Assembly (NCBI GenBank): GCA_947166905.1
Contig: CAMVFZ010000006.1
Coordinates: 62,001-126,000 of the forward strand
Length of the DNA stretch: 64,000 bases
Direction of reading: 5' to 3'
Source: an uncultured Prevotellaceae bacterium
GTDB lineage: Bacteria > Bacteroidota > Bacteroidia > Bacteroidales > UBA932
Shown: piece by piece, positions 18,500 to 62,664 of the stretch
How positions within the stretch are numbered: the first letter of the stretch is position 1
Layout of the letters: each line of letters begins with the position of its first letter
Program-made: the position numbers and the translations under genes
The notes under the pieces: model-generated
Database searches by the model: none
The model's input: only the letters and a program-made list of their open reading frames with translations
What the model was told of the DNA's origin: nothing

Positions 18500-18596
18500 G
18501 TTGCTAGCGGGCAGGTGAAGCGCCCGAATGGCCATCGGCCATATTTTCTGGCCTGAGGGTGCTTTACCTGCCGCCGGCGCAAAAAGAATAACAAGA

Positions 18597-18647: not shown

Positions 18648-18677
18648 AATGCGTAACTCATTGATACTCAATGATGG

Positions 18678-18731
18678 GATTTCTCCGCTTCGGTCGAAAT
18701 GACAGAGAAAGGAGCGGTCGAAATGACAGAG
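18678..18731. repeat. GTCATTTCGACCG-type repeat, one full and one partial copy
   Basis: On the minus strand CTCTGTCATTTCGACCGAAG continues into CGGAGAAATC (full copy 18678-18707). A partial second copy of CTGTCATTTCGACCG lies at 18713-18731. The shared GTCATT opening links it to the elements found inside trmB, the 32666 gene and the PP2C gene. Confidence 0.6.
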
Positions 18732-18734
18732 GAA

Positions 18735-18980
18735 AACGTCGCAGGTGTGATAAAAACGCTTGACCTGCGACCCTGTACGCTCTGAGTGGCCGATTACCGT
18801 CCCCGGTCAGCCAAAAATATCACACCTGCGACGTTACGCCCTAAGCGGGGCGTCAAGAGGGAGGTCTATGGCCTTAGAAAAAGAATCGGGATGGACAACC
18901 GTTACGGGTGGCCGCAGGACATCCGTAAAAGGGCGGAGTCAGCCGTCAAGCGACCGGGTTGGGCCCGTTCTTTTTCGCAG
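18735..18980. ncRNA. Candidate structured element in a gene-free stretch
   Basis: There is no convincing gene here. A perfect 18-base inverted repeat (18735-18752 and 18818-18835, 65 bases apart) is followed by a long-range stem: 18878-18890 pairs with 18964-18975, with one bulged T. The enclosed 73 bases contain GGATG/CATCC and other short stems. The right arm is CCCGTTCTTTTT, which would also serve as a U-rich end. Small frames across it have low-complexity, Arg-rich translations and are probably not genes. It may be a multicopy repeat or an RNA. Confidence 0.4.
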
Positions 18981-18982
18981 GT

Positions 18983-19912: not shown

Positions 19913-20333
19913 CTTTCTTATCTCTATATAGCCGCAGACCGGCTCCATTAACACTACTCTCCCCTTTCACAAACACCGACGCCTTCCAGATGCCATACAC
20001 CACCGGACGGAAGCCAGACCGCAGAACACGAGTCAAAACCCCACCAGTAGAAGCATCCGCCATAGTCAGGACAACATCCTCCCGATACACCACCTCCGAC
20101 GGCGACAAATAATCAATCTGCACCGCAAGGGTATCCTTCGGAGAAGCATCGGCATAAATATAAAGCTGAAGGCTGTAATCCAGGGAATCCGTCATATCAA
20201 GGGTAAAGTTGGCATAGCCGTCAGCATCAAAAAAGACAAAGGACTCGTCCGATGCCGGCCGCTTGCAGGAAAGCGCAAGCAACGGCAAAATAGCCGCTGC
20301 CGCCATTAAAATAACCCTTGAAATCCGATTCAA
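19899..20333 (-). CDS. gldH: Gliding-motility-type lipoprotein GldH
   Basis: A 144-residue lipoprotein if translation starts at the TTG at 20333. That codon has AAGGAG 7 bases upstream and restores a basic N-terminus (NRISR) ahead of the hydrophobic stretch ending LALSC (Cys23). The next ATG (20306) would leave no positive charge before the signal, and longer in-frame starts run back into ricT. The mature part has a beta-sandwich look with GIWKASVFV and the family end GAGLRLYRDKK. GldH is needed for gliding in Flavobacteria; in non-gliding Bacteroidales its role is unclear. Gene order ricT-gldH supports the call. Confidence 0.75.
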   Translation of the reverse strand: MNRISRVILMAAAAILPLLALSCKRPASDESFVFFDADGYANFTLDMTDSLDYSLQLYIYADASPKDTLAVQIDYLSPSEVVYREDVVLTMADASTGGVLTRVLRSGFRPVVYGIWKASVFVKGESSVNGAGLRLYRDKKDGSR

Positions 20334-47836: not shown

Positions 47837-47852
47837 GCCGATCTTTTTTTTT
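47821..47852 (+). terminator. Bidirectional terminator between convergent operons
   Basis: AAAAGATCGGC-CATAA-GCCGATCTTTT with a run of T to 47852. The loop contains the TAA of the Spy-like gene. The A-run on the left lets it also end the minus-strand FHA operon. Confidence 0.85.
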
Positions 47853-48996
47853 AATATGTCATATTGAATGTGACCTTTATCTTGTTGCCGACGAATTGCT
47901 TTGCCGTGTAACTGTATAGCTCTACAAAGAAATACATTGCCACCGTACCTGTGGTAGTTGTGGAATGGATTTCTGAATAGGGCATGAAGATTATCAGGTC
48001 ATTGTAGGTGGTTTTCGGATATCCAGGCTTGAAGGATTTGGAACCGACCACGTTACCATCGGCAGTGTTATAACTGCTGTTGGTATCTTTTATCGGGGAG
48101 CCATTGGCATAGTAGAAATATGCAAGGGCATCGCATTGGTCGTCCATACAGTTGTCAATGCTGAAGTTGACATGGATGTTCATTCCCTTCTTGCCGTCTA
48201 CATATACATTGTGGTCTACCTTGACCTCTTTGATTTCTGCAGTCCTTGAAGTTGTCGTAGTCTTGGCTTTGATCTCTACATACTCGGTCCTAAGCAGGTT
48301 GCCCTTGAAATAGAGTTCGAACCTGTAGCGGCCGGGTTTGTAATAGCCGCCGTTCTCTGTGCCCCAGCCTCCAAGTACCAGAGACTTGTCGCTGCCGGGC
48401 TCGATGGTATAAGTCCCGCTAATAGTAAAACCCTCCGGTGAAGCACTGTCATTTCTGCACAAGGTCCCGTCCGGCCTGAAAATTTTCCAGTAGAGAGTAA
48501 TTGATTTTGAAACACTTGCAAGACCAGTGTATCTAATCTTAGGCGCCAGATACCTCATCTCGTCGTCGTAAAGAGTTCCGCCGTACCACGTCAGCACTTC
48601 CCTTTTATTGTCCTGATTGCCGAAGTTGATATAATTAATATCCATATATCCCTTGGCCTCCAATTCCGATTCCTTCCTTCGGGCATTTGCGGCCTCCTGC
48701 TGGCGGCGCTGCTCTGCCTGGCGGGCCGTCTCTTCCTGACGGCGGGCGTCCTCGGCCTGCCTAATGGCCCTGCGGCATTCCTCCTTCTTTTGGGCAAGGT
48801 CGTCGTTCGCAGGCTTGTCCGGGCAATCTGCCGCAGCATCAAAGAACTGTATAGCCTTGGCGTACTGCTTCTGCTGCATCAGCTTGACGCCCTGTGCGCG
48901 AGTTGTCTTGTAGCAGTCGCAATCCTGGCCCTTTATGCTGATAAAGGAGCCAGAGAAGACCAGAAGTAATATGAGTAAAAACCTGTATCTGAACAT
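47851..48996 (-). CDS. Secreted protein with TPR-like/coiled-coil N-terminus (FHA operon, gene 8)
   Basis: A 381-residue exported protein; the signal peptide ends near residue 23 (IKGQ), with Cys26 and Cys28 right after it. Residues about 30-60 look like one TPR-like hairpin (GVKLMQQKQYAKAIQFFDAA), followed by a charged Arg/Gln/Glu coiled coil (about 70-112). The rest is beta-rich and contains GGWGTENGGYYKPGRYRFE, which matches the C-terminus of the neighbouring kinase (TSWGYDKGSHYSPGNYRVE). It is the last gene of the eight-gene operon, 7 bases after that kinase. I infer a periplasmic or surface partner in the same signalling chain. The family is not recognised. Confidence 0.7.
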   Translation of the reverse strand: MFRYRFLLILLLVFSGSFISIKGQDCDCYKTTRAQGVKLMQQKQYAKAIQFFDAAADCPDKPANDDLAQKKEECRRAIRQAEDARRQEETARQAEQRRQQEAANARRKESELEAKGYMDINYINFGNQDNKREVLTWYGGTLYDDEMRYLAPKIRYTGLASVSKSITLYWKIFRPDGTLCRNDSASPEGFTISGTYTIEPGSDKSLVLGGWGTENGGYYKPGRYRFELYFKGNLLRTEYVEIKAKTTTTSRTAEIKEVKVDHNVYVDGKKGMNIHVNFSIDNCMDDQCDALAYFYYANGSPIKDTNSSYNTADGNVVGSKSFKPGYPKTTYNDLIIFMPYSEIHSTTTTGTVAMYFFVELYSYTAKQFVGNKIKVTFNMTY

Positions 48997-49003
48997 GGCC
49001 TTG

Positions 49004-50797
49004 TTACTTTAAGATGAACGATTTTCCAAAAAGATTGTTATCTCCTTTCCATATCTCTACTCTGTAATTGCCAGGACTGTAATGGCTTCCCTTGTCATAG
49101 CCCCATGATGTAAGGAAGATATTATACGGATACTGGCTGGCAGATGAATTGGCCAGCACAGTTAAAGGAACCTCCTTTGTAAGGGCATCGTTCCACCCTC
49201 CATAAAACTTCACAACTACAGAGTCATCAATATCCTCGTCCAGGATTCCATTATACTTAAGGAAAAAGTTTATGCTGTTTACATTCTTGGCGTACAAGCC
49301 GTCGCTTCCTTCATCCAAAAGATTGTCGTCCTCGTCGTGATAGTTAATTTCTACGTCGCCAACCTTCATATAGGCAAGGCTTTCGCACAAAGAGTAAAGA
49401 CCAGCAGTCAAAGTGCTGTCCGGATAGTTAGGTAGCAGGAGTACGGCTAGCCTGGAATAATCTGCAGCGTTGCCAAAATTGCCTATCATCTTCTGGGAAT
49501 TGGCCGCCTTTGCCCAGGAACGGCAGGCCTCGTCCAATTTATAATCCATATCGTCGACAAGGCTGTAGTAATCGCCGAACACTTCCGGATAATACTTGGA
49601 GTACCTGAAGTCATAGGCCAACACGGTATCCAAAAGCACCTTGCCGTCCAGCAGGGCTTTGTAATTACGGGCATCTCCCGTCTGGATATAGGTCCGGCAC
49701 GCCGCTACATAATTGGTGTAAGCCTCTATCTGAGAATGTGCATGCCTCTTGTCTGCGGTAGAGAAGAACCAGGCCGCAAAACCACCGCCTACAAGAAGTA
49801 CGGCCACTAGGGTAATTATCAGCGACTTGTGAGACTTCTTGGGCTTGCCGCCTGGGCTTGCCGCCTGAGGGCCATCGGCCGCAGGGGCCGCAACTTCTGG
49901 CGCGAATGGAACCTCTACTTTTCGCTGAGTCTTGCGGGGGTCAAAGCCAGGCCCGCCGGCAAGGCGGCTGTCAAGTATGTTCTGCGCGAACTCCTCCAGT
50001 TCAAACGCCTTAATCCTGTCCCAGGGCTCCTTGGCAAGACAAAGGTAGATTACGTTCCTGAGGTCATCGGACCAACGGCTGTCCACCTCCGGCATATCGG
50101 CTCCGTTGCGAAGCATATTGCCACCCTGGCCATAGAAGGGCAGTTCGCCCATGGCAATCTCGTAGATGCTGGCGCCAAGGGACCAGATATCACTGGCCAT
50201 GATGGGGGTAGGATGGGAAGAGAAACGCTCCGGGCCCATGTATGCAACCGCACCGGCCTTGGCCGACCTGTTGGACTGGCTGCGCATGGTGGAACGTATC
50301 TTCTTGCTTATACCGAAGTCCGTGATGACAAAGTTGTCGTCGTTGTCTATAAGGATGTTGTCCGGCTTGATGTCCTGATGGACGATGGGATCCGGTTCCT
50401 GGCCGTGAAGGCAGGCAAGACCGGCCGCAACGTCGCGGATAAAGCGCCAGAGAAGGTTTTCATTCTCTGGCGTAGGCTCCAAAGTTCCCACAAGACGCGC
50501 GGCGGAACCCTTTGAGCAATAGCGCATTACAAGGAACGGCCTGTTCTCCCAGGTGCCAAGGAAAGACGCAGTAAGCAGGTTCTTGTGGTAAAGTCCGTAT
50601 GCAATCTGATACTCGGACATGAACTCTTCACGCCCGCGCTCGTCAAGCATTATGTAGAACTTTATGGCAACTTCTTCTCCGGTGGCATCGTTGACGGCCT
50701 TCCAGACTTCTCCGTAGCTGCCGGCGCCGATGTATTCCTGTAAGGTATAGGAATGGTCGCCGTCCTGAATTTTGATATTAGGCGTTAGCTGTTCCAT
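49004..50797 (-). CDS. Membrane Ser/Thr protein kinase, non-RD (FHA operon, gene 7)
   Basis: A 597-residue Hanks-type kinase. The glycine loop is GAGSYG (24-29), the ATP Lys is K46, the catalytic loop is HQDIKPDN (140-147) and DFG is at 160-162. The HRD Arg is replaced by Gln, so activation-loop control may differ from RD kinases. A Pro/Ala linker precedes one membrane helix (about 331-350, SLIITLVAVLLVGGGFAAWF). The outer part has a helical TPR-like stretch and a terminal beta domain shared with the 47851 gene. Its start overlaps the PP2C gene by 20 bases. It probably phosphorylates the FHA partners in response to an outside signal. Confidence 0.9.
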   Translation of the reverse strand: MEQLTPNIKIQDGDHSYTLQEYIGAGSYGEVWKAVNDATGEEVAIKFYIMLDERGREEFMSEYQIAYGLYHKNLLTASFLGTWENRPFLVMRYCSKGSAARLVGTLEPTPENENLLWRFIRDVAAGLACLHGQEPDPIVHQDIKPDNILIDNDDNFVITDFGISKKIRSTMRSQSNRSAKAGAVAYMGPERFSSHPTPIMASDIWSLGASIYEIAMGELPFYGQGGNMLRNGADMPEVDSRWSDDLRNVIYLCLAKEPWDRIKAFELEEFAQNILDSRLAGGPGFDPRKTQRKVEVPFAPEVAAPAADGPQAASPGGKPKKSHKSLIITLVAVLLVGGGFAAWFFSTADKRHAHSQIEAYTNYVAACRTYIQTGDARNYKALLDGKVLLDTVLAYDFRYSKYYPEVFGDYYSLVDDMDYKLDEACRSWAKAANSQKMIGNFGNAADYSRLAVLLLPNYPDSTLTAGLYSLCESLAYMKVGDVEINYHDEDDNLLDEGSDGLYAKNVNSINFFLKYNGILDEDIDDSVVVKFYGGWNDALTKEVPLTVLANSSASQYPYNIFLTSWGYDKGSHYSPGNYRVEIWKGDNNLFGKSFILK

Positions 50798-51950
50798 CTT
50801 CTACCTCCGTTTTAGTTTCTATCTGATTATTATCTCCTCCTTCCGATGGCTCCCGGGAATCCGGGGTGGGCGGCACCACGGTTTCTACCCCCGGCTCCTG
50901 TGGAGCGGGAGCGTTTTTCTTAAGTAAGAGTATTCCTGCCACCGCAATAACGGCGATGGTGATAATTATAGCCAGAATAGTCTTCCAGCGGGATTTCCCG
51001 GACGCAGTTTGCACCGCAGTAGAGGTAACTGCGGGTTCAGTACCGGCAATGACGGAAACAGGGCCGGCTCCGCTTTGAATTTCACACAGAATAGCGGTAA
51101 CATTATCGTACCAGTCTGCGTCTTCCGCAGCCCTCCAAAGGGCCTCGCGGCAAGTAACCAGCGATTCCCTGTTGGCAGCGATTATATCCTCCAAATTCTC
51201 TCCGGGGTAGTATCCGCCTGCGCCGTCAGGGGTCTTCCTGTCACGGAGTACACCGCTAAGGCCATCGCTGCAAAGCAGGATTATATCTCCGTCATAAACA
51301 TTGAAGAACCTGGTCTCCGGGCGGATCTTTTTGGAATCGTCGCCAAGACTGCGTGTTACTATGTTGCCCTGAGGATGCTCGAAGGTCTGGTCGTAGGTAA
51401 GCAGGCCCTTCTGAACCAGTTCCTGCACATAGGAATGGTCTTCTGACAGCATCTGGATGCCGGTTGCCGCATTGTAGCGATATGCGCGGCTGTCGCCACA
51501 CCAGCTAAGCGTAAGCTCGTTTCCAACAATCCAGGCAAGTATAATGGTGCTGCCCATTCCGTCGTGCTCCGGATTGTCAGAAGCATCCTTCTTTATTCTC
51601 TTGTCCGCCTCTGCTATCAACGCCTCAAGATACTTCTTCCTGGACTCATGGCTGGCAGAATTCTCTGCATTTATCTTTCCCGGAGAAAAGAAGTCCTGGA
51701 TAGTCTCTACGGCTATTTCAGAGGCTACTTCTCCGGCATTCATTCCGCCCATACCGTCCGCTACGGCCATGATAAGGCCGTATTCGCTCAGTTCCTTGAC
51801 AACGTCGGACTCGCAATGGCCGGTGAGGTCGTCGCTCAGGTTGTCGTCTACATAAAAGTTATCCTCGTTGCCGCTTCTGACGGCGTCCGGGTTGAATTTC
51901 CCGGCCGCATCGGAATAAGCGTGCATACGGAATGTGATTTTCTTGTCCAT
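50778..51950 (-). CDS. Membrane-anchored PP2C-type Ser/Thr phosphatase (FHA operon, gene 6)
   Basis: A 390-residue phosphatase. The metal-site motifs are present: RSGNEDN, VADGMGG (D65-G66), GDSRAY and CSDGLSG. After the catalytic domain a Pro/Ala/Ser linker leads to one helix (about 323-345, TILAIIITIAVIAVAGILLL) and a short acidic outer tail. Part of the linker (PVSVIAGTEPAVTS) is encoded by a GTCATTGCCGG-type DNA repeat. It would reverse the phosphorylation set by the two kinases of the operon. It overlaps the kinase gene by 20 bases. Confidence 0.92.
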   Translation of the reverse strand: MDKKITFRMHAYSDAAGKFNPDAVRSGNEDNFYVDDNLSDDLTGHCESDVVKELSEYGLIMAVADGMGGMNAGEVASEIAVETIQDFFSPGKINAENSASHESRKKYLEALIAEADKRIKKDASDNPEHDGMGSTIILAWIVGNELTLSWCGDSRAYRYNAATGIQMLSEDHSYVQELVQKGLLTYDQTFEHPQGNIVTRSLGDDSKKIRPETRFFNVYDGDIILLCSDGLSGVLRDRKTPDGAGGYYPGENLEDIIAANRESLVTCREALWRAAEDADWYDNVTAILCEIQSGAGPVSVIAGTEPAVTSTAVQTASGKSRWKTILAIIITIAVIAVAGILLLKKNAPAPQEPGVETVVPPTPDSREPSEGGDNNQIETKTEVEDGTANA

Positions 51951-51965
51951 GACAGGCCGGGCTGT

Positions 51966-53468
51966 TTATTTGATTTGTGAAATTGGAACTACACAGCCGA
52001 TGTTGCGGCCGGCTCCGGCAGAAACAATACCTACGACAACAAGGTTGCCGGACGGGTTGGTATAGAATACCGGGCCGCCGGAGTTTCCGTGCTCGTAGTT
52101 GGTATCGGTAGTAAGGATAATTCCGTTCTGAAGGCCGTTGGAAGCAACGATTGCGCTGCCGTAAACGGGATCTACGCCGGATGCGCCAACACCAAGGCCA
52201 AGCGGGAAGCCAAGAACGGTAAGGGACTCGCCCCTTGAAAGGGTACGGCTCTTGTCGGCATCGAATTCAAGTCCGCCGGCAGATGATCCGATGTTGGCAT
52301 AAGCATAATCGGTTTCGTCAATTGCAGCCAGCGACAGCTTGGTACCGTCATCAGAAGTGCCGTATCTATCGTGTGAAGAATCTATTACAAACTGGCTGCT
52401 GGACAGCTGAATGACATTGCCTGTAGAAGAGTAGGCGGCCAGGTGGACTGTAACCTTGCCTCCGTTATTGGCAATGGCGTTAAGCTGGGCCATGCTGTTG
52501 TTGGTGCCGTCTCCGTCCTGCCAGAAATTCCAGGCCTCGACTACGTGTCTGGCGGTAACAAACTTGCCGTTGGTTAGCAGGAAGCCTGAGCCTGACCAGC
52601 CGGGAGCATCTTCTCCGCACTCCAGCGTTCCGGAAGAGCCATCCGGCATGATGATATCAAAATACAAGGACTGGATAAAGTAAACGCCTGGCAGACAAGC
52701 ATCTATAGCATCATTATTTACGACACTTTTTATATTGGGCTGTACGGCCGGACGGGATTCCACGCTACGTAATCTATCCTTGATACGCTGGTTATCTGCA
52801 GCAAGCATCTCGTTGTTCAGCTGCAGGTTCTGAATCAGTGAATCCTTGATTGCACGCTCCCTTGCAGCCTGCTCCTTGAACTCTGCCAAAGCCTTGTCCT
52901 GCAGGGCAATAACCTTATTCTGACCAATCATGGCCCATACTCCAAAGCCGATGGCGGCGGCAAAGATGCACGCCAATATGGATATGGATGTCTTGTATGG
53001 ACGCAGAGCCTGCTTGCGGAAGAGATTCATCCTGGCCGTAAGGCCGATGCTCCTGACAAGACCCTTATCCCCCTGGGGAACAATAAAGCCCAGTTTGGGG
53101 CCGTTGACGGAGAGCTGAATCTCGTCACCGCTCTGCAAAAACCACTCGGAATCTATTTTGCGGCCGTTAAGGAAAGTGGAGTTTGTCTTGGAAAGCTGGA
53201 TAAGTTTCCATCCCTCACCGTCCTTGACGATGGCGGCATGACGGCGGCTTACTGTCTTGAAGGACTCGTCAAAGCGCACCTGGCACTTGGAATCGCGGCC
53301 CAGTTCTATCTGGTCCACGATTATCCTTTGGGATTCTCCTGCCTTGTGATAGGCCGACGCCACCTTGTGCTCCAAAATGTAGTATCGGCGTCCAGATCCT
53401 CCCATCAGGGAGCGCATGCCGGCTCCTATTGAGCCTGACATCGTTTTCTTATAGCTTTGTTCAGACAT
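51966..53468 (-). CDS. FHA - membrane helix - trypsin-like protease protein (FHA operon, gene 5)
   Basis: A 500-residue protein with an unusual build. A cytosolic FHA domain (about 45-125) has GRD (57-59), SRRH (75-78) and TNSTFLNGR (95-103), the phosphothreonine-binding residues. One membrane helix (about 160-181) is followed by a coiled coil (about 185-238). The periplasmic part is trypsin-like with H308 in TARHVV, D387 in ETDYAY and S463 in GNSGGP. All three catalytic residues are present, so it may be an active protease whose placement or activity is linked to phosphorylation inside. It lies 5 bases after the channel gene and 15 before PP2C. Confidence 0.88.
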   Translation of the reverse strand: MSEQSYKKTMSGSIGAGMRSLMGGSGRRYYILEHKVASAYHKAGESQRIIVDQIELGRDSKCQVRFDESFKTVSRRHAAIVKDGEGWKLIQLSKTNSTFLNGRKIDSEWFLQSGDEIQLSVNGPKLGFIVPQGDKGLVRSIGLTARMNLFRKQALRPYKTSISILACIFAAAIGFGVWAMIGQNKVIALQDKALAEFKEQAARERAIKDSLIQNLQLNNEMLAADNQRIKDRLRSVESRPAVQPNIKSVVNNDAIDACLPGVYFIQSLYFDIIMPDGSSGTLECGEDAPGWSGSGFLLTNGKFVTARHVVEAWNFWQDGDGTNNSMAQLNAIANNGGKVTVHLAAYSSTGNVIQLSSSQFVIDSSHDRYGTSDDGTKLSLAAIDETDYAYANIGSSAGGLEFDADKSRTLSRGESLTVLGFPLGLGVGASGVDPVYGSAIVASNGLQNGIILTTDTNYEHGNSGGPVFYTNPSGNLVVVGIVSAGAGRNIGCVVPISQIK

Positions 53469-53473
53469 ATCCG

Positions 53474-54214
53474 TTATTCTTTATAGAATCTGTTGATAAG
53501 GTTTTCGTTCATGTAGTTGCTCATATCGGAGAAGAGATCCTCTTCTTTCTTCTCTATGAAGTGCATGCTGAACACAAGGATAATGCTCAGGAACAGGGCC
53601 ACCAGGGTGGTATCGAAGGCCACTCCAAGCATATCGGTAACCAGTTTCAAACCCTCCGTGCTACCAGCCTGGTCTGCATATCCAAGGGCGCCGGCGATAC
53701 CCAGCACGGTTCCGATGAAGCCCACGGACGGAATAGCCCACGCCGTGTAACGCATAAAAGATTGCTCGCTGTCTACCTTGGCCTTATAAATGCCGATCTG
53801 GGCCTCAACCAATCCCAGAACCTCTGAAGAAGACTTGCCAAGACGATACTTGGTACAGGCCTTCTTGATAAGGTCTGTAAGATAGAACTTCTGACTGCGC
53901 TCCAGCTGCTGCATGTTGAGCTTTATCTGGTTTACATCCTCTGCACTGAGCAGCCAGTTCTCCTCTTCCGGGAGCAACTTGGCAGAGAAAGCGTCGGATT
54001 CATAGGACAGGCGCCTGCTGGTACTGAAGACCTCTGACATTCCGAAGAAGAAAAGGAAGTAGGTGAAGCCCTGGATGATGCCACCGGGGAGTACTCCTCC
54101 CAGCATTACAAGGATACGGGGCGGATCCTGCTCCGGAGTCATTACGACCAGTACGGCCATCACTGCTACAGCTGCTATGAAGCTGATTAACAATCTTACG
54201 ATTCTATTGTTCAT
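53474..54214 (-). CDS. MotA/TolQ/ExbB-family proton channel protein (FHA operon, gene 4)
   Basis: A 246-residue inner-membrane protein. Helices are at about 8-25, 33-56, 135-158 and 180-203. The family block is RYTAWAIPSVGFIGTVLGIAG followed by LVTDMLGVAFDTTLVALFLS, as in the TolQ/ExbB helices that line the ion path. A cytosolic segment of about 75 residues lies between helices 2 and 3. No tonB, tolR, tolA or pal is nearby. The adjacent gene (54230) supplies an ExbD/MotB-like helix, so the pair should form a complete channel. Confidence 0.88.
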   Translation of the reverse strand: MNNRIVRLLISFIAAVAVMAVLVVMTPEQDPPRILVMLGGVLPGGIIQGFTYFLFFFGMSEVFSTSRRLSYESDAFSAKLLPEEENWLLSAEDVNQIKLNMQQLERSQKFYLTDLIKKACTKYRLGKSSSEVLGLVEAQIGIYKAKVDSEQSFMRYTAWAIPSVGFIGTVLGIAGALGYADQAGSTEGLKLVTDMLGVAFDTTLVALFLSIILVFSMHFIEKKEEDLFSDMSNYMNENLINRFYKE

Positions 54215-54229
54215 GGTATTGTATTTTTC

Positions 54230-55132
54230 CTATTTAACAACTTTTCCTGTTCCCCAGATGGGCTCCCTGTGCTCCAGAACGGTGAAACCATTGCTGGTTA
54301 GCTGGAAGGTGACGAAGCACTTGTGAGGGGCGTTTTGCTGAATGTGGAACGGCCCTATCTCATATCTTTGCTCATCTGCCTTTCCGGGATGATAGATAAG
54401 GGTTGCCGTCACGTTAGCCTCTTTGCCGATGGAGCCAGAATAAACATTACACCAGGCCGTGTAAACTTCCGGGTAAATCTCCGGGACATAGAAGAGCTCG
54501 AAGCGCTCTGACTCGTCCGTCGCACGCTCCCTGACATCTTCTCCCAGTATACCCCACTTCTTGGAGGCATGCATACGCCAGCACTGCTCCGGCTCGCTTC
54601 CGAAGCGCTGGACGCCCATGTCCACGTCCGTATCCGTCTGTTCCCATCGGCAGAGTATACCAAACTTGGCAAATACGCCAAGGGTACGCTCTACGGTGCT
54701 GGCCGCAGTGTTTGCCCTTTCCGCCTGGGCGGCCCGAGCCTGCGCTTCACGCAGCTGCTGCTTCAGGCGCTCTATTTCTTCTGCCTGAGCCGCCACCTGC
54801 TCCTTCAGGGTGGTGTTTTCTTCTGTCATCCGCCTGACGTCATCTTCCATCTCACGGATCTTGTCCTTAAGCTGACTAATCTTTCGCCTCAGGTCTTCCA
54901 GCTCCTGGGCAATCTCTTTGAAAACGTCTTTGGGGACGCTTTCCTTTAGCTTTGCCGTAAGGTCCTGGACCTCTGTTGCCACCACTTCCAGCTCCTTGAC
55001 TTTCTCTATGATTTCTACATCGGAGCTGGTCTTTTTAGGTACGATGACAAACAGGATGATAACCGAAGCCAAAGCACCGGACAGCAGGTCAAGGAATGAT
55101 GTTCCGAATATGTTTATATCCTTCTTGGCCAT
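54230..55132 (-). CDS. ExbD/MotB-like helix with long coiled coil and C-terminal beta domain (FHA operon, gene 3)
   Basis: A 300-residue protein with a very short cytosolic start and one helix (about 11-32). The stretch TSFLDLLSGAL places Asp15 where ExbD has its proton-carrying Asp (TPFIDVML). Residues about 42-140 are a strong coiled coil. The C-terminal 150 residues are beta-rich, with TDTDVDMGVQRFG, which recalls DUF2135/YfaP-type folds (weak). No OmpA-type peptidoglycan domain is seen, unlike MotB or ZorB. It shares one base with the kinase-FHA gene and lies 15 bases before the channel gene. Confidence 0.75.
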   Translation of the reverse strand: MAKKDINIFGTSFLDLLSGALASVIILFVIVPKKTSSDVEIIEKVKELEVVATEVQDLTAKLKESVPKDVFKEIAQELEDLRRKISQLKDKIREMEDDVRRMTEENTTLKEQVAAQAEEIERLKQQLREAQARAAQAERANTAASTVERTLGVFAKFGILCRWEQTDTDVDMGVQRFGSEPEQCWRMHASKKWGILGEDVRERATDESERFELFYVPEIYPEVYTAWCNVYSGSIGKEANVTATLIYHPGKADEQRYEIGPFHIQQNAPHKCFVTFQLTSNGFTVLEHREPIWGTGKVVK

Positions 55133-56469
55133 CAGTATGCCTCCGCTCTAAGTTTTACATCGCCGATAGTTATAATATCCCCCGGCCTGATATAAAGGCC
55201 GGCAGCATCAACCTCCGTTGAATTGATATACGTTCCATTTGTTGAACGCTTCCAGCCGAAGGTGCCGGGGCCGCCACCGGTGTCGCTCCTCCACTGGCCG
55301 TCGCGCAGAATCCAACCACGGTTCTGCGGGTTCTTCTCCAGAGTACAGTGATAGCGGGACACATAGCTTGTATCCTGCTCTTTGATAGGAATGGTATTGG
55401 CCGTTCCAAGAGTCTGGCGGCCAACCGTAAGTAGCAGCCTGCCGGTTGCGGCAAGGAGCTGGTCCAACTTGTATACGCGCCCGGATTCCTCTCCCTGCAT
55501 AACCCGCAGCAGGATTCCGTTCACTACTTCTGTCTGAGGTTTTGTGAGCTCTGACGACACGCCTTTGTAAACAGAGGCGCGCATGAAATCCTGGCCTGCG
55601 GCCGGAAGAAGCGCCAGGGCTTCGTCGGCATTCTGAAGCCGCTGCTTGAAGTCTGGCGCAAGGCAGGCTTCTATTAGCCGGGCCCAGGCCTGACCGCCGG
55701 GCACGGCGCCCAGCCGCTCGCGGTCCCATCGGCCCGTCCTGCCACGCTCTATATACGAGGGCAGGTCCGCCTCTGACTGAAGGCGGCCGAACGGGAGTTC
55801 CCCGGTTACCAGCTGGTACATCATCACTCCGTAGGAGAAAATGTCCGTTGTGGGCAGCACAGTGGCATTGCCGCGGCGGGGATTCACCTGCTCCGGTGGC
55901 ATGTAGCCAAAGGTGCCGAACATCTGCTTGGGCACTCCGTTGATGCCCTTTTCCGTCATGCGGTTGTTGCGGTCTCCGGAAATACCAAAGTCCGTAAGCA
56001 CGGCCGATCCGTCCTGGCGTAGCAGCACGTTCTCCGGCTTAAGGTCCCTGTGGACCTTGCCGCATTTGTGAAGGTCCCTGAGGCCGTAAAGAATCTGTGC
56101 GCCGGCCAGCTGAAGGCTTACGCGATGCTCCTTTGTAGCGGACGCCAGGTCTCCTCCGGGGCAGAATTCCATGACTATGTAAGGGTTACCCTTGGCCTTT
56201 CCCTGGCCGTAAGAATGCACAAGATAGTTGCTTGGAATAAGACCGGTGGAGTACTCCATGTCAAAGCGCCTGACAAGCGCCGGCCTTTCTGAAGAGACTA
56301 CATCCCACAGCTTCAGAAGCTTTAGGGCGAAGACACCGCCGTCCGCCGCGCGTACTCTGTACACGACGCCGAAGGTTCCTTCTCCAAGGACCTTCTCTAC
56401 GGTGAAACGGCCGTCAATACCGTCTCCGCGCCCGAAGTCGCATCTTTCGCTGATGATGTACTCTCCCAT
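55132..56469 (-). CDS. Ser/Thr protein kinase with C-terminal FHA domain (FHA operon, gene 2)
   Basis: A 445-residue cytosolic protein. The kinase domain (about 20-290) has GEGTFG (29-34), K50, HRDLKPEN (140-147) and DFG (160-162): a complete RD kinase. A linker leads to an FHA domain (about 345-443), with VGRQTLGTANTIPI, SRYHCTL and RSTNGTYIN. A kinase joined to its own phosphothreonine-reading domain suggests self-assembly after autophosphorylation. It lies 6 bases after the zinc-ribbon/FHA gene. Confidence 0.92.
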   Translation of the reverse strand: MGEYIISERCDFGRGDGIDGRFTVEKVLGEGTFGVVYRVRAADGGVFALKLLKLWDVVSSERPALVRRFDMEYSTGLIPSNYLVHSYGQGKAKGNPYIVMEFCPGGDLASATKEHRVSLQLAGAQILYGLRDLHKCGKVHRDLKPENVLLRQDGSAVLTDFGISGDRNNRMTEKGINGVPKQMFGTFGYMPPEQVNPRRGNATVLPTTDIFSYGVMMYQLVTGELPFGRLQSEADLPSYIERGRTGRWDRERLGAVPGGQAWARLIEACLAPDFKQRLQNADEALALLPAAGQDFMRASVYKGVSSELTKPQTEVVNGILLRVMQGEESGRVYKLDQLLAATGRLLLTVGRQTLGTANTIPIKEQDTSYVSRYHCTLEKNPQNRGWILRDGQWRSDTGGGPGTFGWKRSTNGTYINSTEVDAAGLYIRPGDIITIGDVKLRAEAY

Positions 56470-56475
56470 GCAGCA

Positions 56476-57102
56476 TTATCCGTTGAATTCAAAAAGACGG
56501 TTGCCCAGGACGATTATATCGCCCGGTTCAAGTTTGGTCTTGCGGTTTACCTTGATAAAGGTTGTCCCCTGCTCGCTCTTGTTCTCCAGATACCAGTCCT
56601 GGCCGTCGTGGGTAAGCTGGGCCTGGGCACGTGAGCTGATGGAGTTGTTGTTGGCATCTGTATTGGCCCTCTTGAGCACGATTTTATCCCCGGAATAGGA
56701 TACCGGCTGATAATCTATGCCCTCGTTCGCCCAGGCAATTGGTTTAAGGGTGCAGAACACGCCCTGGGCCGGATTAATCCAGCTGTTGACCGTGCCGCCT
56801 ATCTTTTGTTTCAGGGGAACCCCGCATGAAGGGCAAACGTTCATGTCCGGACGGGTAGGATAACCACACCTGGGGCAGGAGGAGACTTCTGCAGGAGCCG
56901 GAGCGGCAGCCTGAGGAGCCTGGGCCTCGTAGGGCTGGTAGGCTTCCGGGGCCTCTTTTACAGTGCCGCTTAACGGGTGCTCCGGAACCGGAGTGGCCGG
57001 TGCGGGACCGCGGTCTACCATAGACCCCGTAAGCGGGGCGTTACACTTTGAGCAGCGTATGCTGCCCTCCTGGTTTTCCCAACCGCAATTTTTACATCTC
57101 AT
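56476..57102 (-). CDS. Double zinc-ribbon and FHA protein (FHA operon, gene 1)
   Basis: A 208-residue cytosolic adaptor. The first ribbon uses Cys3, Cys6, Cys17 and Cys20; the second uses Cys76, Cys79, Cys90 and Cys93, with a Pro/Ala linker between. The FHA-like domain (about 128-208) has NNSISSRAQAQLTHDG, NKSEQGTTFIKVN and LEPGDIIVLGN. In FHA terms the SxxH His is Gln, so phosphothreonine binding may be weaker. As first gene of the operon it could recruit partners to the kinases. The start is the first ATG; no ribosome site stands out. Confidence 0.85.
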   Translation of the reverse strand: MRCKNCGWENQEGSIRCSKCNAPLTGSMVDRGPAPATPVPEHPLSGTVKEAPEAYQPYEAQAPQAAAPAPAEVSSCPRCGYPTRPDMNVCPSCGVPLKQKIGGTVNSWINPAQGVFCTLKPIAWANEGIDYQPVSYSGDKIVLKRANTDANNNSISSRAQAQLTHDGQDWYLENKSEQGTTFIKVNRKTKLEPGDIIVLGNRLFEFNG

Positions 57103-57288: not shown

Positions 57289-58200
57289 ATGAAGTTGTTC
57301 GAAGACAAGACACAAGCCCGGCCATTTATCAAGTGGGTTGGAGGGAAGACACAGTTGCTGGACGAGGTTAAGAAATCGCTCCCTCGCGATTTCGCTACCC
57401 GTCAGCACGTTACATATGTAGAGCCTTTTGTGGGTGGTGGCGCCGTGATGTTCTGGATTCTTCAGGCTTACCCCAATATTGAGCACGCCGTTATAAATGA
57501 CATCAACGAGGAGCTCATCTGCACCTATCGCATCATCAAAGAGAGCGTTGAAGAACTGATTTCTGCACTCTCTCGCATACAGTCAGACTATATTCCCCTA
57601 AACGCAGAAGCCAGAAAGGACTATTTTATGGAAAAGAGGGCTCTTTTCAACACCAAGGAGACCTCGCCGATTGAAACGGCCGCCTTGTTCATCTTCCTCA
57701 ATCGCACATGCTTCAACGGCCTGTATCGCGTCAACTCAAAGGGCGAATTCAACGTTCCACACGGCAAGTATGCCAATCCCCGCATCTGCGATGCCGATAA
57801 CCTCCATGCTTGTTCCGAGGTCCTGCAGAAAGTAGAAATCCTTTGTGGCGATTTCGCTGAGACTGGACGCTACGCCGGCCCCGACACGCTGTTCTATTTC
57901 GACCCGCCTTACAAGCCCATCACGGAAACCTCTTCATTTACCTCCTATGCGAAAGAAGGGTTCAATGATGCCGAGCAGATTCGTCTTCGCGACTTCTGTG
58001 ACCAAATCAGCAGGGATAAGGCTCTATTTGTCGCCAGCAACTCTGACCCCAAGGATGTGAATCCTCAGGAGAATTTCTTCGACACTATCTATAACCATTT
58101 CTTCATCAAACGGGTATCCGCCTCCAGAATGATTAATTCTGATGCCTCCGGGCGAGGCGCTATTTCCGAATTGATGATCTCAAACGTAGTAAACGCATAA
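57289..58200 (+). CDS. DNA adenine-N6 methyltransferase, Dam/DpnM class
   Basis: A 303-residue D12-class methyltransferase. PFIKWVGGKTQLL (residues 12-24) is the N-terminal SAM motif, YVEPFVGGGAVMF follows and the catalytic DPPY is at 205-208. Paired with a DpnII-type endonuclease it should methylate A in GATC on double-stranded DNA and protect the host. It is the first gene of the island, with its own promoter, and is followed by the endonuclease after 2 bases. Confidence 0.93.
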   Translation: MKLFEDKTQARPFIKWVGGKTQLLDEVKKSLPRDFATRQHVTYVEPFVGGGAVMFWILQAYPNIEHAVINDINEELICTYRIIKESVEELISALSRIQSDYIPLNAEARKDYFMEKRALFNTKETSPIETAALFIFLNRTCFNGLYRVNSKGEFNVPHGKYANPRICDADNLHACSEVLQKVEILCGDFAETGRYAGPDTLFYFDPPYKPITETSSFTSYAKEGFNDAEQIRLRDFCDQISRDKALFVASNSDPKDVNPQENFFDTIYNHFFIKRVSASRMINSDASGRGAISELMISNVVNA

Positions 58201-58202
58201 TT

Positions 58203-59060
58203 ATGAGGGATTTCCAAGTTTGGCTGGCAGGTTTCCGTCCAGCTATTGCCGGTTATAAATACTACACCGACTTTGAAAAGGTCTACCGTAATGTGGATGC
58301 TATCAAGGTTGAGCTGAACATTATGAACTCCTTAATTGGTAGTGCTGCTATTGAAGATGATTTCAAAGCCCTTTGCAAACGGTATCCAGAAATCCTCAAA
58401 TGCATCCCTGTCTTGATTGCAAAACGGGAAACAGACATCCTTACTGTGGACTTTGACGGTGAACATCTCTTCGATTTCAAGGAGGCCAATTACCCCGTTG
58501 AGGATTATGTTGTCTTTATGCGCGAAACGGGGCTATTTGACCTAATGAAGCAAAAGCACATTCAAAACTTAGTAGACTATGTTACTGGTGTTGAAACCGG
58601 CCTGGATTCCAATGCCCGCAAGAACCGTGGTGGGCACGTTATGGAAGACCTCGTGGAAGGCTATCTCGTCAAAGCAGGCTTAGTAAAAGATGAAACGTAC
58701 TTTAAGGAGATGTATATTAGTACGATTGAGCAGAAGTGGGGAATCGACCTTTCATGCATCTCCAATGAGGGCGGTACCGAAAAGCGCTTTGACTTCGTTA
58801 TTAGGCGGCCCAATATGATTTATGGGATCGAAACCAACTTCTACTCCAGCGGTGGTTCCAAGCTAAACGAAACAGCCCGTAGTTACAAGACTTTGGCATT
58901 AGAGACCAAGGGCCATAAGAAATTCAAGTTTGTTTGGATTACCGATGGTCATGGTTGGGTCTCCGCTCGTAATAATCTCAAGGAAACATTCGATGTGCTG
59001 GATAATATGTACAATATCCTAGACCTTGAGGAAGGCATAGTATCAAGTAAACTCATTTAG
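58203..59060 (+). CDS. DpnII/MboI-type restriction endonuclease (GATC)
   Basis: A 285-residue type II endonuclease. The family core is clear: GLDSNARKNRGGHVMEDLV, then RFDFVIRR (D197) and IETNFYSSGGSKLNETARSY (E210, N212), the PD-(D/E)xK-like active site of DpnII relatives, where ETN replaces ExK. It cuts unmethylated GATC in the known family members. It sits between its methyltransferase and an unknown gene, with gaps of 2 and 1 bases. Confidence 0.9.
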   Translation: MRDFQVWLAGFRPAIAGYKYYTDFEKVYRNVDAIKVELNIMNSLIGSAAIEDDFKALCKRYPEILKCIPVLIAKRETDILTVDFDGEHLFDFKEANYPVEDYVVFMRETGLFDLMKQKHIQNLVDYVTGVETGLDSNARKNRGGHVMEDLVEGYLVKAGLVKDETYFKEMYISTIEQKWGIDLSCISNEGGTEKRFDFVIRRPNMIYGIETNFYSSGGSKLNETARSYKTLALETKGHKKFKFVWITDGHGWVSARNNLKETFDVLDNMYNILDLEEGIVSSKLI

Positions 59061-59061
59061 C

Positions 59062-59586
59062 ATGGTCAAGAATAAATATATTCATTCCATTGATTTGAAG
59101 CGGATTCAAATCAAGAATACGGATCGGGAGAGCTTTGCTAATGCTTTAATTGAACTGCCTTACCGCGGCTACGAAGTAGAAGATATTTCGGATGGACGCA
59201 AGATAGTAATTTCCAAGCCAGGAGGAAAAAGGAGTTTTGGCCGTATTAGCAAAGAGGACATCCTCGTTTTTATATATACTCCAGACACACAGGACCTTTG
59301 GCAGATTTCTCACAAACAGATTTTGGATGACCTTCAATCCAAGGCTGTTGAAGATGGCAAACAAACCAAACGCTTAATTGACGTATTTGAGCAGGTTCTT
59401 AATGGAGTAGATCCCGATGATATTAAAGATGCTATATCTTCATTCCAATTTAACACTGGAGAGCTTCCCGAAGCCCTTATCAAAGCATATAAGTGGATTT
59501 GGGGGCAAGAAGATGTGAACTATAAGAATGGCAAAGGGCGTATGCTTTGCTGGAGCGCCATAGCGGAATTGCAGGATAGTTTATGA
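59062..59586 (+). CDS. Unknown protein inside the restriction-modification operon
   Basis: A 174-residue soluble protein with no signal peptide or membrane helix. It is charged and mixed alpha/beta (SIDLKRIQIKNTDRESFANA, GKRSFGRISKEDILVFIYTP, LPEALIKAYKWIWGQEDVNY). I do not recognise a domain, and no helix-turn-helix of a controller protein is obvious. It is one base after the endonuclease and overlaps the second methyltransferase by 4 bases (ATGA), so it belongs to the same transcript. It may assist the endonuclease or be an added immunity factor. Confidence 0.75.
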   Translation: MVKNKYIHSIDLKRIQIKNTDRESFANALIELPYRGYEVEDISDGRKIVISKPGGKRSFGRISKEDILVFIYTPDTQDLWQISHKQILDDLQSKAVEDGKQTKRLIDVFEQVLNGVDPDDIKDAISSFQFNTGELPEALIKAYKWIWGQEDVNYKNGKGRMLCWSAIAELQDSL

Positions 59587-60464
59587 TAGTCCCTTTCTAC
59601 AAGTCCCCTAACAACAACTTCACTCTTATAAAGGGTGATTGTGTCGAGCTTTTGAACTCATTTGAATTCAAGTTCGATATGATTTTCGCCGATCCGCCGT
59701 ACCATCTATCCAACGGTGGCATCAGCATACAGAGCGGCGTTCCCGTGTCTGTAAACAAAGGCAAGTGGGATATGTCCCAGGGATTTGAGGAGGACTATAA
59801 GTTTGACAAAACGTGGCTGGCAGCCTGCCGTGAGCACTTGAAATCCGATGGTACCATCTGGGTAAGCGGAACATATCACAACATCTTCTCTGTTGCCCGC
59901 TGCCTGACTGAGCTGGATTTCAAGATTCTCAACTGCATCACCTGGGTAAAGACCAATCCTCCACCCAACCTTTCCTGTCGATATTTCACATACTCGGCAG
60001 AATACATCCTGTGGGCACGCAAGGAACAGAAAGTGGCCCACTACTATAACTATGAGTTGATGAAGGAAATCAACGGCGGCACCCAGATGCGGGATGTCTG
60101 GACACTGCCGGCGATTGCACCGTGGGAAAAGGCCTGCGGCAAGCATCCAACCCAGAAGCCATTGTGCGTCCTATCCAGAATCATTCAGGCCTCCACAAAG
60201 CCAGGCGCCTGGATACTCGACCCGTTCACAGGAAGCAGCACTACCGGCATCGCAGCTAATCTCCTTGGACGCCGGTTCCTGGGCATCGACCAGGAAGAAA
60301 AGTTTCTCGAAATAAGCAAAGCACGTCGTGAGGAACTTGAAAGTTTACGCATACGAGGTGAGATACTAGAGAAGCTTAATAAGCAAGCTAAACTGTTCCA
60401 AGATAGCGATATTTCCGTGCTATGTGAGCCGAAAGAATACTTCGGTCCGGATCTACCATTCTAG
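59583..60464 (+). CDS. Second DNA methyltransferase, DpnA-like (beta class)
   Basis: A 293-residue enzyme. The catalytic motif DPPYHLSNGG (DPPY at 37-40) comes first and the SAM motif DPFTGSSTTGIAANLLGRRFLGID last, the beta-class order. HPTQKPLCVLSRII precedes it. In the pneumococcal DpnII system a second methylase (DpnA) also acts on single-stranded GATC DNA; the same is inferred here. It overlaps the unknown gene by 4 bases. Confidence 0.9.
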   Translation: MIVPFYKSPNNNFTLIKGDCVELLNSFEFKFDMIFADPPYHLSNGGISIQSGVPVSVNKGKWDMSQGFEEDYKFDKTWLAACREHLKSDGTIWVSGTYHNIFSVARCLTELDFKILNCITWVKTNPPPNLSCRYFTYSAEYILWARKEQKVAHYYNYELMKEINGGTQMRDVWTLPAIAPWEKACGKHPTQKPLCVLSRIIQASTKPGAWILDPFTGSSTTGIAANLLGRRFLGIDQEEKFLEISKARREELESLRIRGEILEKLNKQAKLFQDSDISVLCEPKEYFGPDLPF

Positions 60465-60587
60465 AGCTCATGATGTCGCACGGCAAAGATCCGGCGATTC
60501 TCACATCGGCATACTTGCCTTATCTTTCTTGATGGTATCATATTCATGTGGATTCCGGATAGCCAAGAATTCTCCGGAAATATTAAT

Positions 60588-60618
60588 TTTGAAAAATATG
60601 CATAATCCGCTATTTTTG
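60588..60618 (+). promoter_or_regulatory. Promoter of the HExxH gene pair
   Basis: TTTG (60588-60591), 19 bases, TATTTTTG (60611-60618): full consensus. The 60465-60587 stretch before it holds nothing else I can support. Confidence 0.75.
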
Positions 60619-60653
60619 TAAGAGTAATCCACTAATCATTAATATTTTAGACA

Positions 60654-62018
60654 ATGGCAGCACAAGATATCAGCCTCGATTTCAAGCCCATTCTTGATCA
60701 TCTTAGACTTATAGAATCCAAGGTGAAAAGAGTTCGCCATGACGAGTATCTTCCTCAAATGAACAGCTTTACCTTGGAAAGCATCACTAATGAAGCAAAT
60801 AGGATGCTTGAGTTCGCCGGCCTGCCAGGTTATTTTGCCGTAGTTAGTTATGAAAACCTTACAGACGGCATCGGTGGCGACGTGCCTCTAAATTATGATA
60901 GAAACGTCAACATAAGAATCTCAAATATTTATAAAAATAACTATGCTGCTACTCTTGCGATTCTAGCACATGAAATCTGCCATAAAGTCCTGTTTGTCAA
61001 TCATCTTGTTTTCCCAACAACAATGATGACAGAAGTACACGCAGACGTGACTACTCTTTATGTCGGCTTTGGTAATTTGATTTTAAATGGATGTATCACC
61101 CATAATGCTAACACAAAGCACTATCTTGGGTATCTCACGTATGACACGTATAAGTTAATTAAAAGCATCCTTGATGTTATATATAGGCGTAAATCAGTTG
61201 ACACTATTGCATTCTCAAAATTAGATATTGTAACACAACATGCTTTAAATAATTGGGCTCTTGTTTTAAAAAAGCGGGAAAATCCCGAAGAATACTTGCT
61301 AAAAGAGAGCACTAATGATGTTCGACTAATGGATAGCATTAACCTTCTAGAACAAATGCTAAATTACCATAAGGTCAAGATTTACAAAAAATTGGATTTG
61401 ATTGAGAAAGAACTATACCAATACAACGACCTAGAAAAACTTAGTTATGACAACACCATTGATGTTTTTTATAATTACTACGAATGTATTCTGAAAGAGG
61501 ACAGCGATGAAATATTAAAGAAAGATTTTGAGCATCGACTTGGGAATGATGCTACAACAAATAATGGAGAGCAAGAGGAGAGTACAATTATTATGAATGC
61601 CGCGTATGACTTATACAATCATATAGATAATAATTCTCTCACAATAAACAGATTGGCAAAATGCCCGTTTTGCGGTGAGAGCATTTTAGGCGCTGCTACA
61701 AAAAAAGACCATTTTGTTATTGTGTGCCCATCATGTAAAAGACATTTTATTAAAACACGTGTCGTCTGGGAGCCTGATAGCCACAAAAATATACAAAACA
61801 AAAAAGACTCGAACGAGATTGCTAAATTAAAAGATGAGATAAAAGACCTTAAACAAAAATCAAAAAGATTAAAGGATGAGAATGAAATATTAAAAAATCA
61901 ATCACATGAATCTTATTCTGGAATCAATTATTTTTTGGCCAAAAAATACATTTTTACTATAAATGTTTTCTTATTGCTTTGCGCTATTTCATTAATTATT
62001 AAGCTGTTATTCTTCTAA
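60654..62018 (+). CDS. HExxH zinc-protease-like protein with zinc ribbon and C-terminal membrane helix
   Basis: A 454-residue protein. The first 140 residues contain HEICH (106-110) and, 17 residues later, E127 in EVHADVTTLYVGFG: a gluzincin-like HExxH...E arrangement similar to M48 or M78-type peptidases, though the family is not certain. A zinc ribbon uses Cys337, Cys340, Cys358 and Cys361. A Lys/Glu-rich coiled coil follows (about 385-420), and a terminal membrane helix (about 430-453) anchors the protein with its domains in the cytosol. Base content is far more AT-rich than the neighbours, which suggests recent acquisition. It has its own promoter and is 1 base before the next gene. Confidence 0.75.
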   Translation: MAAQDISLDFKPILDHLRLIESKVKRVRHDEYLPQMNSFTLESITNEANRMLEFAGLPGYFAVVSYENLTDGIGGDVPLNYDRNVNIRISNIYKNNYAATLAILAHEICHKVLFVNHLVFPTTMMTEVHADVTTLYVGFGNLILNGCITHNANTKHYLGYLTYDTYKLIKSILDVIYRRKSVDTIAFSKLDIVTQHALNNWALVLKKRENPEEYLLKESTNDVRLMDSINLLEQMLNYHKVKIYKKLDLIEKELYQYNDLEKLSYDNTIDVFYNYYECILKEDSDEILKKDFEHRLGNDATTNNGEQEESTIIMNAAYDLYNHIDNNSLTINRLAKCPFCGESILGAATKKDHFVIVCPSCKRHFIKTRVVWEPDSHKNIQNKKDSNEIAKLKDEIKDLKQKSKRLKDENEILKNQSHESYSGINYFLAKKYIFTINVFLLLCAISLIIKLLFF

Positions 62019-62019
62019 A

Positions 62020-62664
62020 ATGTCGCGCGATTTAAAATTATCTTTATGGTTGTTAGCTATTAACGCAACCCTATTACTTTTCTTGGCCGCAAAATATGAT
62101 AAAAAGGGTCAAGAGAAAGCTAACGCCAATACACACAATAGCAGTGTAAAAACAAATTATAATCGCAGCGCCAATATTCCTCGATTTGAAATAGCATCAA
62201 TTCAACTCAAAAATGAATCACAACCATACGCAGAATGGTACGGGAACAATATCTTACCTGAGCCAGAGGGGCAACAAAGTGTCATAGAAGTACACGCTTC
62301 TAATGAAGAAGATGTTGTGGTCTTAGTAAGATACGATAACCCATACAAGAATATTGCCGGGCACTTATATATTAGGGCCGGAGAATCTGGGAAAATATAT
62401 GTATATCCTGGAAAAAGTTATTTAGTATATTTTTACAGTGGCAATAACTGGGACAGCTCAAAGAAAATGAACGGTGACATTAGAGGAGGCTTTACTAAGA
62501 ATGAGCATACAACGATAGACCCGGAATCTCACTATTTTGCAATAACAAGAAATGGTAAAGAAACTAAATGGGATGGCGGTATTACGTACAATCTTAATAA
62601 AGTAATAAAGGGAAATCTTAGAACAAAGGGAATCTTAAAAGAAGAGGCTTTCTTGCAGTACTAA
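62020..62664 (+). CDS. Single-pass membrane protein partner of the HExxH protein
   Basis: A 214-residue protein with one N-terminal helix (about 7-24, LWLLAINATLLLFLAAKY) that leaves an outer domain of about 185 residues. The domain is beta-rich (VIEVHASNEEDVVVLVRYDN, YIRAGESGKIYVYPGKSYLV) and resembles small sandwich folds, but no family is recognised. It starts one base after the previous stop and has the same AT-rich composition, so the two likely form a unit. A possible reading is a sensor or a substrate of the protease. Confidence 0.65.
   Translation: MSRDLKLSLWLLAINATLLLFLAAKYDKKGQEKANANTHNSSVKTNYNRSANIPRFEIASIQLKNESQPYAEWYGNNILPEPEGQQSVIEVHASNEEDVVVLVRYDNPYKNIAGHLYIRAGESGKIYVYPGKSYLVYFYSGNNWDSSKKMNGDIRGGFTKNEHTTIDPESHYFAITRNGKETKWDGGITYNLNKVIKGNLRTKGILKEEAFLQY

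Follow-up and report, generated by a model that had tools for sequence, protein, structure and literature searches.

A patchily distributed Bacteroidota operon combining Ser/Thr kinases, PP2C and FHA proteins with a predicted 5:2 proton motor

Known relatives and points of difference

Several described systems bring together parts of the gene set reported here. In Myxococcus, two-hybrid assays show the MotA-type protein AglR in contact with GltG, which is bitopic and has a cytosolic FHA domain (PMC3169522). TolQ proteins have been described with vWA partners bearing an ExbD-like transpore helix, in a text that mentions no kinase or FHA-domain partner, and the ion path of ExbBD, TolQR and MotAB is built from a pore-helix aspartate and ring threonines (PMC12204202). 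A survey of MotAB relatives likewise mentions no kinase or FHA partner (PMC12505986). On the signaling side, kinase-kinase-phosphatase (KKP) systems join a PP2C phosphatase to two kinases, one of them fused to an FHA domain (PMC11341870), and the threonine phosphorylation pathway of type VI secretion (PpkA-PppA-Fha) uses a kinase, a PP2C and an FHA reader to switch an envelope machine. Zorya defense (ZorAB) adds extra genes to a MotA-family subunit and its single-helix partner.

The operon described here occupies part of a 64,000-nucleotide stretch of an uncultured Prevotellaceae genome (the window) and comprises genes g1 to g8 (Table 1). Each half of the set has a known counterpart, and the combination is undescribed in the open literature: as the sequence-only reading had supposed, open PMC full text yielded no account of it, though a preprint or subscription journal may contain one. 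Like the M. xanthus AglRQS-Glt machinery, the operon pairs a MotA/TolQ/ExbB-family subunit (g4) with a membrane protein that has an FHA domain predicted to be cytosolic and a periplasmic domain (g5; GltG/PglI in PMC3169522), and AglR-GltG is the best precedent for a g5–g4 contact. Unlike Agl-Glt, the window FHA protein carries a trypsin-fold domain, kinases and PP2C are co-encoded, and a single ExbD-like gene stands where Agl-Glt has two ExbD/TolR proteins and the GltA-K set, no Glt-type set being present in the operon. The TolQ-vWA arrangement (PMC12204202) shares the pore-helix Asp and ring Thr, but the window protein has a coiled coil and beta-sandwich in place of the vWA domain.

Profile scans and feature tests led us to reject the other assignments: the operon belongs to none of Zorya, Ton/Tol, KKP and T6SS. 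KKP has a kinase fused to a cold-shock domain and no motor (PMC11341870), whereas Pfam found no such domain in g2 or g7, and the window adds a membrane kinase, an FHA-trypsin protein, a Zn ribbon-FHA protein and a motor and is not prophage-borne. The long cytoplasmic tail of ZorA is missing from g4, which ends about 26 residues past its last membrane helix, and neither a ZorB peptidoglycan-binding domain nor ZorC/D/E is present; in a PADLOC scan of the eight proteins (best 25 matches listed for g2, g3 and g7), the only Zorya models were weak ZorA hits (E 5e-6) over the motor core. The tolQ model scored 22 bits against a cutoff of 221, no ExbD was among the listed g3 matches, and the operon has no TonB or TolA. 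The envelope machine differs from that of T6SS in being a MotA/ExbD-type motor with a trypsin-fold protein, and no T6SS structural gene was found among the eight genes (Pfam) or in the scanned flanks. These scans agree with an earlier statement that the operon lacks tonB, tol, flagellar, T6SS and Zorya-specific genes.

Composition and conservation of the operon

Table 1. Coordinates and predicted features of the operon and its neighboring restriction-modification genes (window positions)
Feature	Positions	Strand	Length (aa)	Predicted product	Basis
Operon	47851-57102	-		Eight genes, g1–g8
g1	56476..57102	-	208	First gene; putatively cytoplasmic double zinc ribbon + FHA protein	Pfam Zn_Ribbon_1, DZR, FHA
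g2	55132..56469	-	445	Soluble Ser/Thr kinase, C-terminal FHA domain	Pfam Pkinase + FHA
g3	54230..55132	-	300	Pore helix of ExbD type carrying Asp15, then a long coiled coil and a beta-sandwich at the C terminus
g4	53474..54214	-	246	MotA/TolQ/ExbB-family motor subunit	Pfam MotA_ExbB, E 6.5e-13
g5	51966..53468	-	500	FHA (putatively cytoplasmic), TM 164-182, coiled coil, trypsin-like protease (putatively periplasmic)	Pfam FHA + Trypsin_2
g6	50778..51950	-	390	PP2C phosphatase, C-terminal TM 325-343	Pfam PP2C
g7	49004..50797	-	597	Membrane Ser/Thr kinase; kinase domain putatively inside, TM 326-344, putatively periplasmic C-terminal region	Pfam Pkinase
g8	47851..48996	-	381	Putative exported protein with signal peptide; N-terminal part TPR-like, followed by a beta-rich domain resembling g7 C terminus	Hydrophobic 1-19
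DpnII R-M (context, outside system)	57289..60464	+		DpnM methylase, DpnII endonuclease, unassigned ORF, DpnA-type methylase	Pfam MethyltransfD12, DpnII, N6_N4_Mtase

All starts and stops of g1 to g8 match open reading frames in the window, with spacings from g1 to g8 of 7, -20, 15, 5, 15, -1 and 6 bases, bearing out the sequence-only reading of eight adjoining minus-strand genes separated by at most 15 bases or overlapping. The domain content given by that reading also held above Pfam's curated cutoffs for six proteins (Zn ribbons + FHA, kinase + FHA, MotA_ExbB, FHA + trypsin, PP2C and kinase); the ExbD/MotB-like g3 matched no ExbD or MotB family and is identified by its helix and invariant Asp15, and the secreted g8 matched no family at those cutoffs. 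By hydropathy, g3, g5, g6 and g7 have one membrane segment each, and g8 has a signal-like segment. The same set turns up in 16 further clusters, and its six core proteins co-diverge (distance-matrix r of 0.64-0.95, permutation p at most 0.018; a measure of co-inheritance, not of physical contact), so the operon is not a chance arrangement; the eight-gene set is a real, conserved system rather than a one-off.

Catalytic and phospho-binding residues are intact throughout the signaling half. The first zinc ribbon of g1 (CxxC...CxxC) is invariant in eight homologues, as are K50, H140-R-D142 and D160-F-G in g2 (8/8), and the PP2C residues D30, D65-G, GD153S, D229 and D282-N are invariant in 12/12. 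A catalytically intact kinase, PP2C and FHA domain, judged by conserved residues, thus lie in one locus, as in Hanks-type signaling with FHA readers. Among 13 g7 homologues, the kinase motifs are invariant and the region after the membrane helix is highly variable, differing in almost every cluster. Swapped C termini include MORN-like, SUMF1/FGE-like, TPR and Sel1 sequences: by eye, SUMF1/FGE-like sequence ends kinases of cluster L004 and MORN-like sequence those of L002, a TPR lies in the L046 kinase, and WG repeats occur in a protein neighboring that of L045. A constant kinase domain with a variable outer part is what would be expected of interchangeable sensors. Assignment of the operon kinases to BREX or MADS was rejected after profile scans; their matches to PADLOC kinase models are generic to the kinase fold.

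The SUMF1/FGE-like kinase ends of L004 look as if diversified by a diversity-generating retroelement (DGR), with variable codons mostly NNC/NNT and five copies of the pattern present. In that metagenome-assembled genome, none of the five copies resembles a template repeat, nor did any reverse transcriptase score above threshold; an active DGR behind these kinases was rejected on both counts, and the pattern remains a lead.

In g5, the triad H308/D387/S463 is invariant in 12/12 window-type proteins, as are the FHA residues G57-R58, S74, H77 and N101-G102, and the intact triad suggests that proteolysis matters in the window-type operon. The C terminus of g7 and g8 match one and the same region of the L004 protein encoded at 17903-20038. 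Homologues of g8 in L004 and L044 are longer, the latter with a weak OMP_b-brl match. Alignment places a secreted gene between the FHA-trypsin and PP2C genes in most other clusters; it is absent from the window and from L001. As a separate observation, g8 is not a constant member of the gene set.

Two proteins have the features of a 5:2 ion-driven motor of the MotAB/ExbBD/TolQR superfamily. In g4, a MotA_ExbB domain accompanies Thr169, Thr202 and Thr203, which are invariant in 15 sequences including those of the sister type described below; its orthologues in window-type clusters are 39-89% identical, and its profile matches solved ExbB, MotA and TolQ structures weakly. No ExbD or MotB family was among the Pfam matches listed for g3, and the ExbD/MotB-like assignment follows from its N-terminal membrane helix (INxFxxSFLDLLSGAL, invariant, with the putatively proton-binding Asp15 in 10/10 and a single TM at 13-31) followed by a coiled coil and beta-sandwich. 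Both latter elements appear in an AlphaFold model (mean pLDDT 72, about 80-90 in the sandwich). Searched in isolation, the C-terminal domain matched no Pfam family and gave no confident PDB match, and its assignment as DUF2135 or vWA was rejected on those grounds. From these residues, g4 and g3 are predicted to form a 5:2 proton motor.

Distribution, motor loss and a sister operon

A scan of a genome collection, together with searches of related genomes (genus, family, order and phylum samples among them), found 16 further window-type clusters in Bacteroidota, 17 in total: L001 (uncultured Bacteroidales), L002 (Odoribacter laneus, an isolate carrying the full set), L003, L004 and twelve in genomes G033, G094, G105, G214, G225, G809, G850, G1165, G1168, G1258, G1284 and G1349. 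Co-occurrence beyond the window genome, on which the sequence-only reading had depended, is thereby established. All 17 have FHA-TM-trypsin, PP2C and at least one Ser/Thr kinase, the Zn ribbon-FHA and kinase-FHA genes are usual, and 13 keep an intact MotA orthologue, always beside an ExbD-like gene. Every window-type MotA orthologue whose neighborhood was read clusters with FHA-trypsin. The gene set is rare, being patchy yet widely scattered: it was found in 2/19 genomes of the genus, 5/200 of the family (one fragment included), 3/393 of the order sample and 6/395 of the phylum sample, of which three were the sister type.

The motor is a usual but dispensable module. Three clusters of family f208 (L140, L143 and L144) have FHA-trypsin, the insert gene, PP2C, Zn ribbon-FHA and kinase-FHA, with the membrane kinase also present where the contig continues, and no adjoining MotA/ExbD; elsewhere in these genomes, one of which is only 80% complete, there was no motor orthologue, the best MotA match being at paralogue level (E 1.2e-6). 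In G033, MotA is reduced to its last ~63 residues. The channel is therefore not an obligatory output of the phospho-relay, and coupling to the motor is not required.

More distant MotA matches in the phylum sample led to a six-gene sister operon found in a different class of Bacteroidota. It encodes a kinase (often with Sel1), MotA, an FHA protein, PP2C, a bitopic trypsin-fold-TM-FHA protein and a vWA protein with an ExbD-like helix, the last having the same layout beside MotA/TolQ, with the same pore-helix Asp and ring Thr, as in PMC12204202. The whole set occurs in the same order at five loci; a further locus (L052) has the five post-kinase genes in that order on a contig beginning inside the preceding gene, and two short contigs (L127 and the more divergent L128) are of the sister type. 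Gene order differs from that of the window type, and the association of MotA with an FHA-trypsin-fold protein is common to both. Pfam did not recognize the periplasmic part of the sister bitopic protein, but its AlphaFold model (pLDDT 77.5, pTM 0.76) matched PDB entries for DegS, HtrA1, Rv3671c and RsgI9 S1C (E 1e-8 to 6e-10, TM 0.62-0.68). Read by eye, alignment A11 shows no conservation at the His, Asp and Ser positions of the catalytic triad, and the domain is apparently inert. Both operon types would thus join an outer trypsin-fold domain through a membrane helix to an inner FHA domain; the trypsin fold looks active in the window type and apparently inert in the sister. Because the sister fold is degenerate, the two types do not have proteolysis as a common output. 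The sequence-only reading had the channel gated by phosphorylation and acting in turn on the protease; the motor-less clusters, the MotA fragment and the degenerate sister fold leave this without support as a general scheme, the dispensable channel being the main correction to it.

In the window, the scanned flanks hold a sigma factor, an exported protein and the DpnII R-M genes, and lepA follows by sequence. In one relative (G1013, locus L101), a spy-like exported-protein gene is followed by lepA with nothing recognizable between; the operon sits in this interval in L001, and in the window the operon, the R-M genes and two further genes fill it. The GC content is 0.528 in the operon, 0.512 in the left flank and 0.417 across the R-M stretch (57289-62664). 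Together, the neighborhoods and GC values indicate that the operon is accessory and, by composition, not a recent import, and that the R-M genes arrived separately: the operon's GC equals that of the chromosome, and the DpnII system is unrelated to it. Judged by open reading frames, housekeeping genes surround most other clusters; L050 and L051 are among the exceptions. A mobile-element origin was rejected, as no relatives of g4 were found in viral contigs or phages and none of g5 in plasmids.

Proposed mechanism and its rivals

We favor, with a probability of about 45%, a Hanks-type envelope phospho-signaling module in which g5 serves as transmembrane relay, in most cases docked on a 5:2 proton motor. 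The variable periplasmic regions of g7-type kinases would sense envelope or external cues; g7 and the soluble g2 would phosphorylate threonines on proteins of the system, and g6 would remove the phosphates. The phosphoproteins would be bound by g1, acting as a Zn ribbon-FHA hub, and by the FHA domain of g5, and g5 would convey the phospho-state across the membrane to its own trypsin fold. The expected docking partner of g5 in most clusters is g4/g3, whose moving coiled coil and beta-sandwich may deliver proton-motive work to the periplasmic side and turn on or reposition the protease, possibly via g8. The model builds on observed gene content, on co-inheritance and modular loss of the motor, on predicted membrane segments, and on conservation of the residues for catalysis, phospho-binding and the ion path; domain sidedness, which protein phosphorylates which, the g5-motor contact, the direction of the signal and the protease substrate are inferred. 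More tentatively, the two operons may represent a new class of transmembrane signaling machine, in which FHA-read reversible Thr phosphorylation engages a proton-driven 5:2 motor that switches a periplasmic trypsin-fold protein on or off, in a coiled-coil/active-protease and a vWA/pseudo-protease form. Such a system would link eukaryote-like Ser/Thr phospho-signaling with proton-motive 5:2 motors, fields that rarely meet. It offers a compact, one-operon case in which to ask whether FHA binding is coupled to or gates a 5:2 motor and whether a trypsin-fold domain is driven or read across the inner membrane, with the motor-less and pseudo-protease versions as ready-made natural controls.

The signal could also run inward, with the trypsin-fold domain, the g3 beta-sandwich and g8 reading envelope state or motor load, g5 and the kinases relaying it to g1 and cytoplasmic targets, and the motor serving as a load sensor rather than an actuator. 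The degenerate sister fold, recalling RsgI9 and DegS, where such a fold serves in sensing, the soluble hub g1 and the retention of g5 in motor-less clusters all fit such a sensor, which we nonetheless consider rather unlikely given the triad intact in 12/12 window-type proteins examined and a conserved set without a transcription factor. A trans-envelope machine for gliding, adhesion or secretion, switched by phosphorylation as in Myxococcus Agl-Glt, would account for a MotA-family protein beside a bitopic FHA protein (compare AglR-GltG) and for the longer g8-like proteins with their one weak OMP_b-brl match; the lack of a Glt/Gld set in the cluster and of a second TolR/ExbD, the dispensable motor and the very patchy distribution make it improbable.

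We also think it improbable that the operon is a Zorya-like conflict system, directed against phages or other bacteria, in which a motor triggers an effector. Its accessory character (2/19 genus genomes), its place with DpnII R-M in a spy–lepA gap that has nothing recognizable in one relative, the PADLOC kinase matches and the DGR-like look of the L004 kinase ends would suit one, but those matches are generic to the fold, ZorB/C/D/E are absent, most other clusters lie among housekeeping genes, the GC of the operon is the chromosome's and that of the R-M genes is not, and viral, phage and plasmid sequences lacked the relatives sought. The earlier hint at phage defense gained no positive support, its sole tie being the separate DpnII system next door. 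Least probable of all is that two independent modules, the kinase/PP2C/FHA-trypsin genes and the MotA/ExbD pair, merely share an operon: motor-less clusters would follow naturally, but the window-type MotA orthologues whose neighborhood was read all share a cluster with FHA-trypsin, the distances of g4 track those of g5 (r=0.94), and the sister operon repeats the association with another gene order and other fold variants.

Genes beside the operon

The complete DpnII-type restriction-modification system that adjoins the operon has a low GC content and is inserted ahead of lepA. Two genes lie between this system and lepA. One encodes a protein of 454 aa that has a metalloprotease-like HEICH motif and Cys-pair motifs and ends in a hydrophobic segment at the C-terminal side; the product of the other is 214 aa long and hydrophobic at its N-terminus. 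Pfam returned nothing informative for either.

Features in the window and at loci in other genomes (L)
Feature	Coordinates
DpnM, DpnII, DpnA-like	window 57289-60464
Two genes before lepA	window 60654-62664
Decayed motor genes	L045:8401-9770
Kinase-FHA gene as two ORFs (genome G214)	L046:13346-14631
Kinases with SUMF1/FGE-like C-termini	L004:2517-9863 and second contig, same MAG
ORF starting with PHP-like motif (FDLHTHTPAS), near sister operon	L050:1781-4552

Decay and variation in related clusters

At L045, MotA is reduced to its C-terminus while FHA-trypsin and PP2C are intact. The split kinase-FHA gene may be an assembly error or a pseudogene. Variation in the SUMF1/FGE-like kinase ends falls mostly at NNC/NNT codons, a pattern that resembles DGR variable regions; neither a template repeat nor a reverse transcriptase was found in the L004 MAG.

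Sister operon

The six-gene sister operon, with its pseudo-trypsin-TM-FHA and ExbD-like-helix-vWA proteins, occurs at L050, L051, L052 and L124-L128, and the PHP-like-motif ORF near it at L050 is possibly a defence neighbour.
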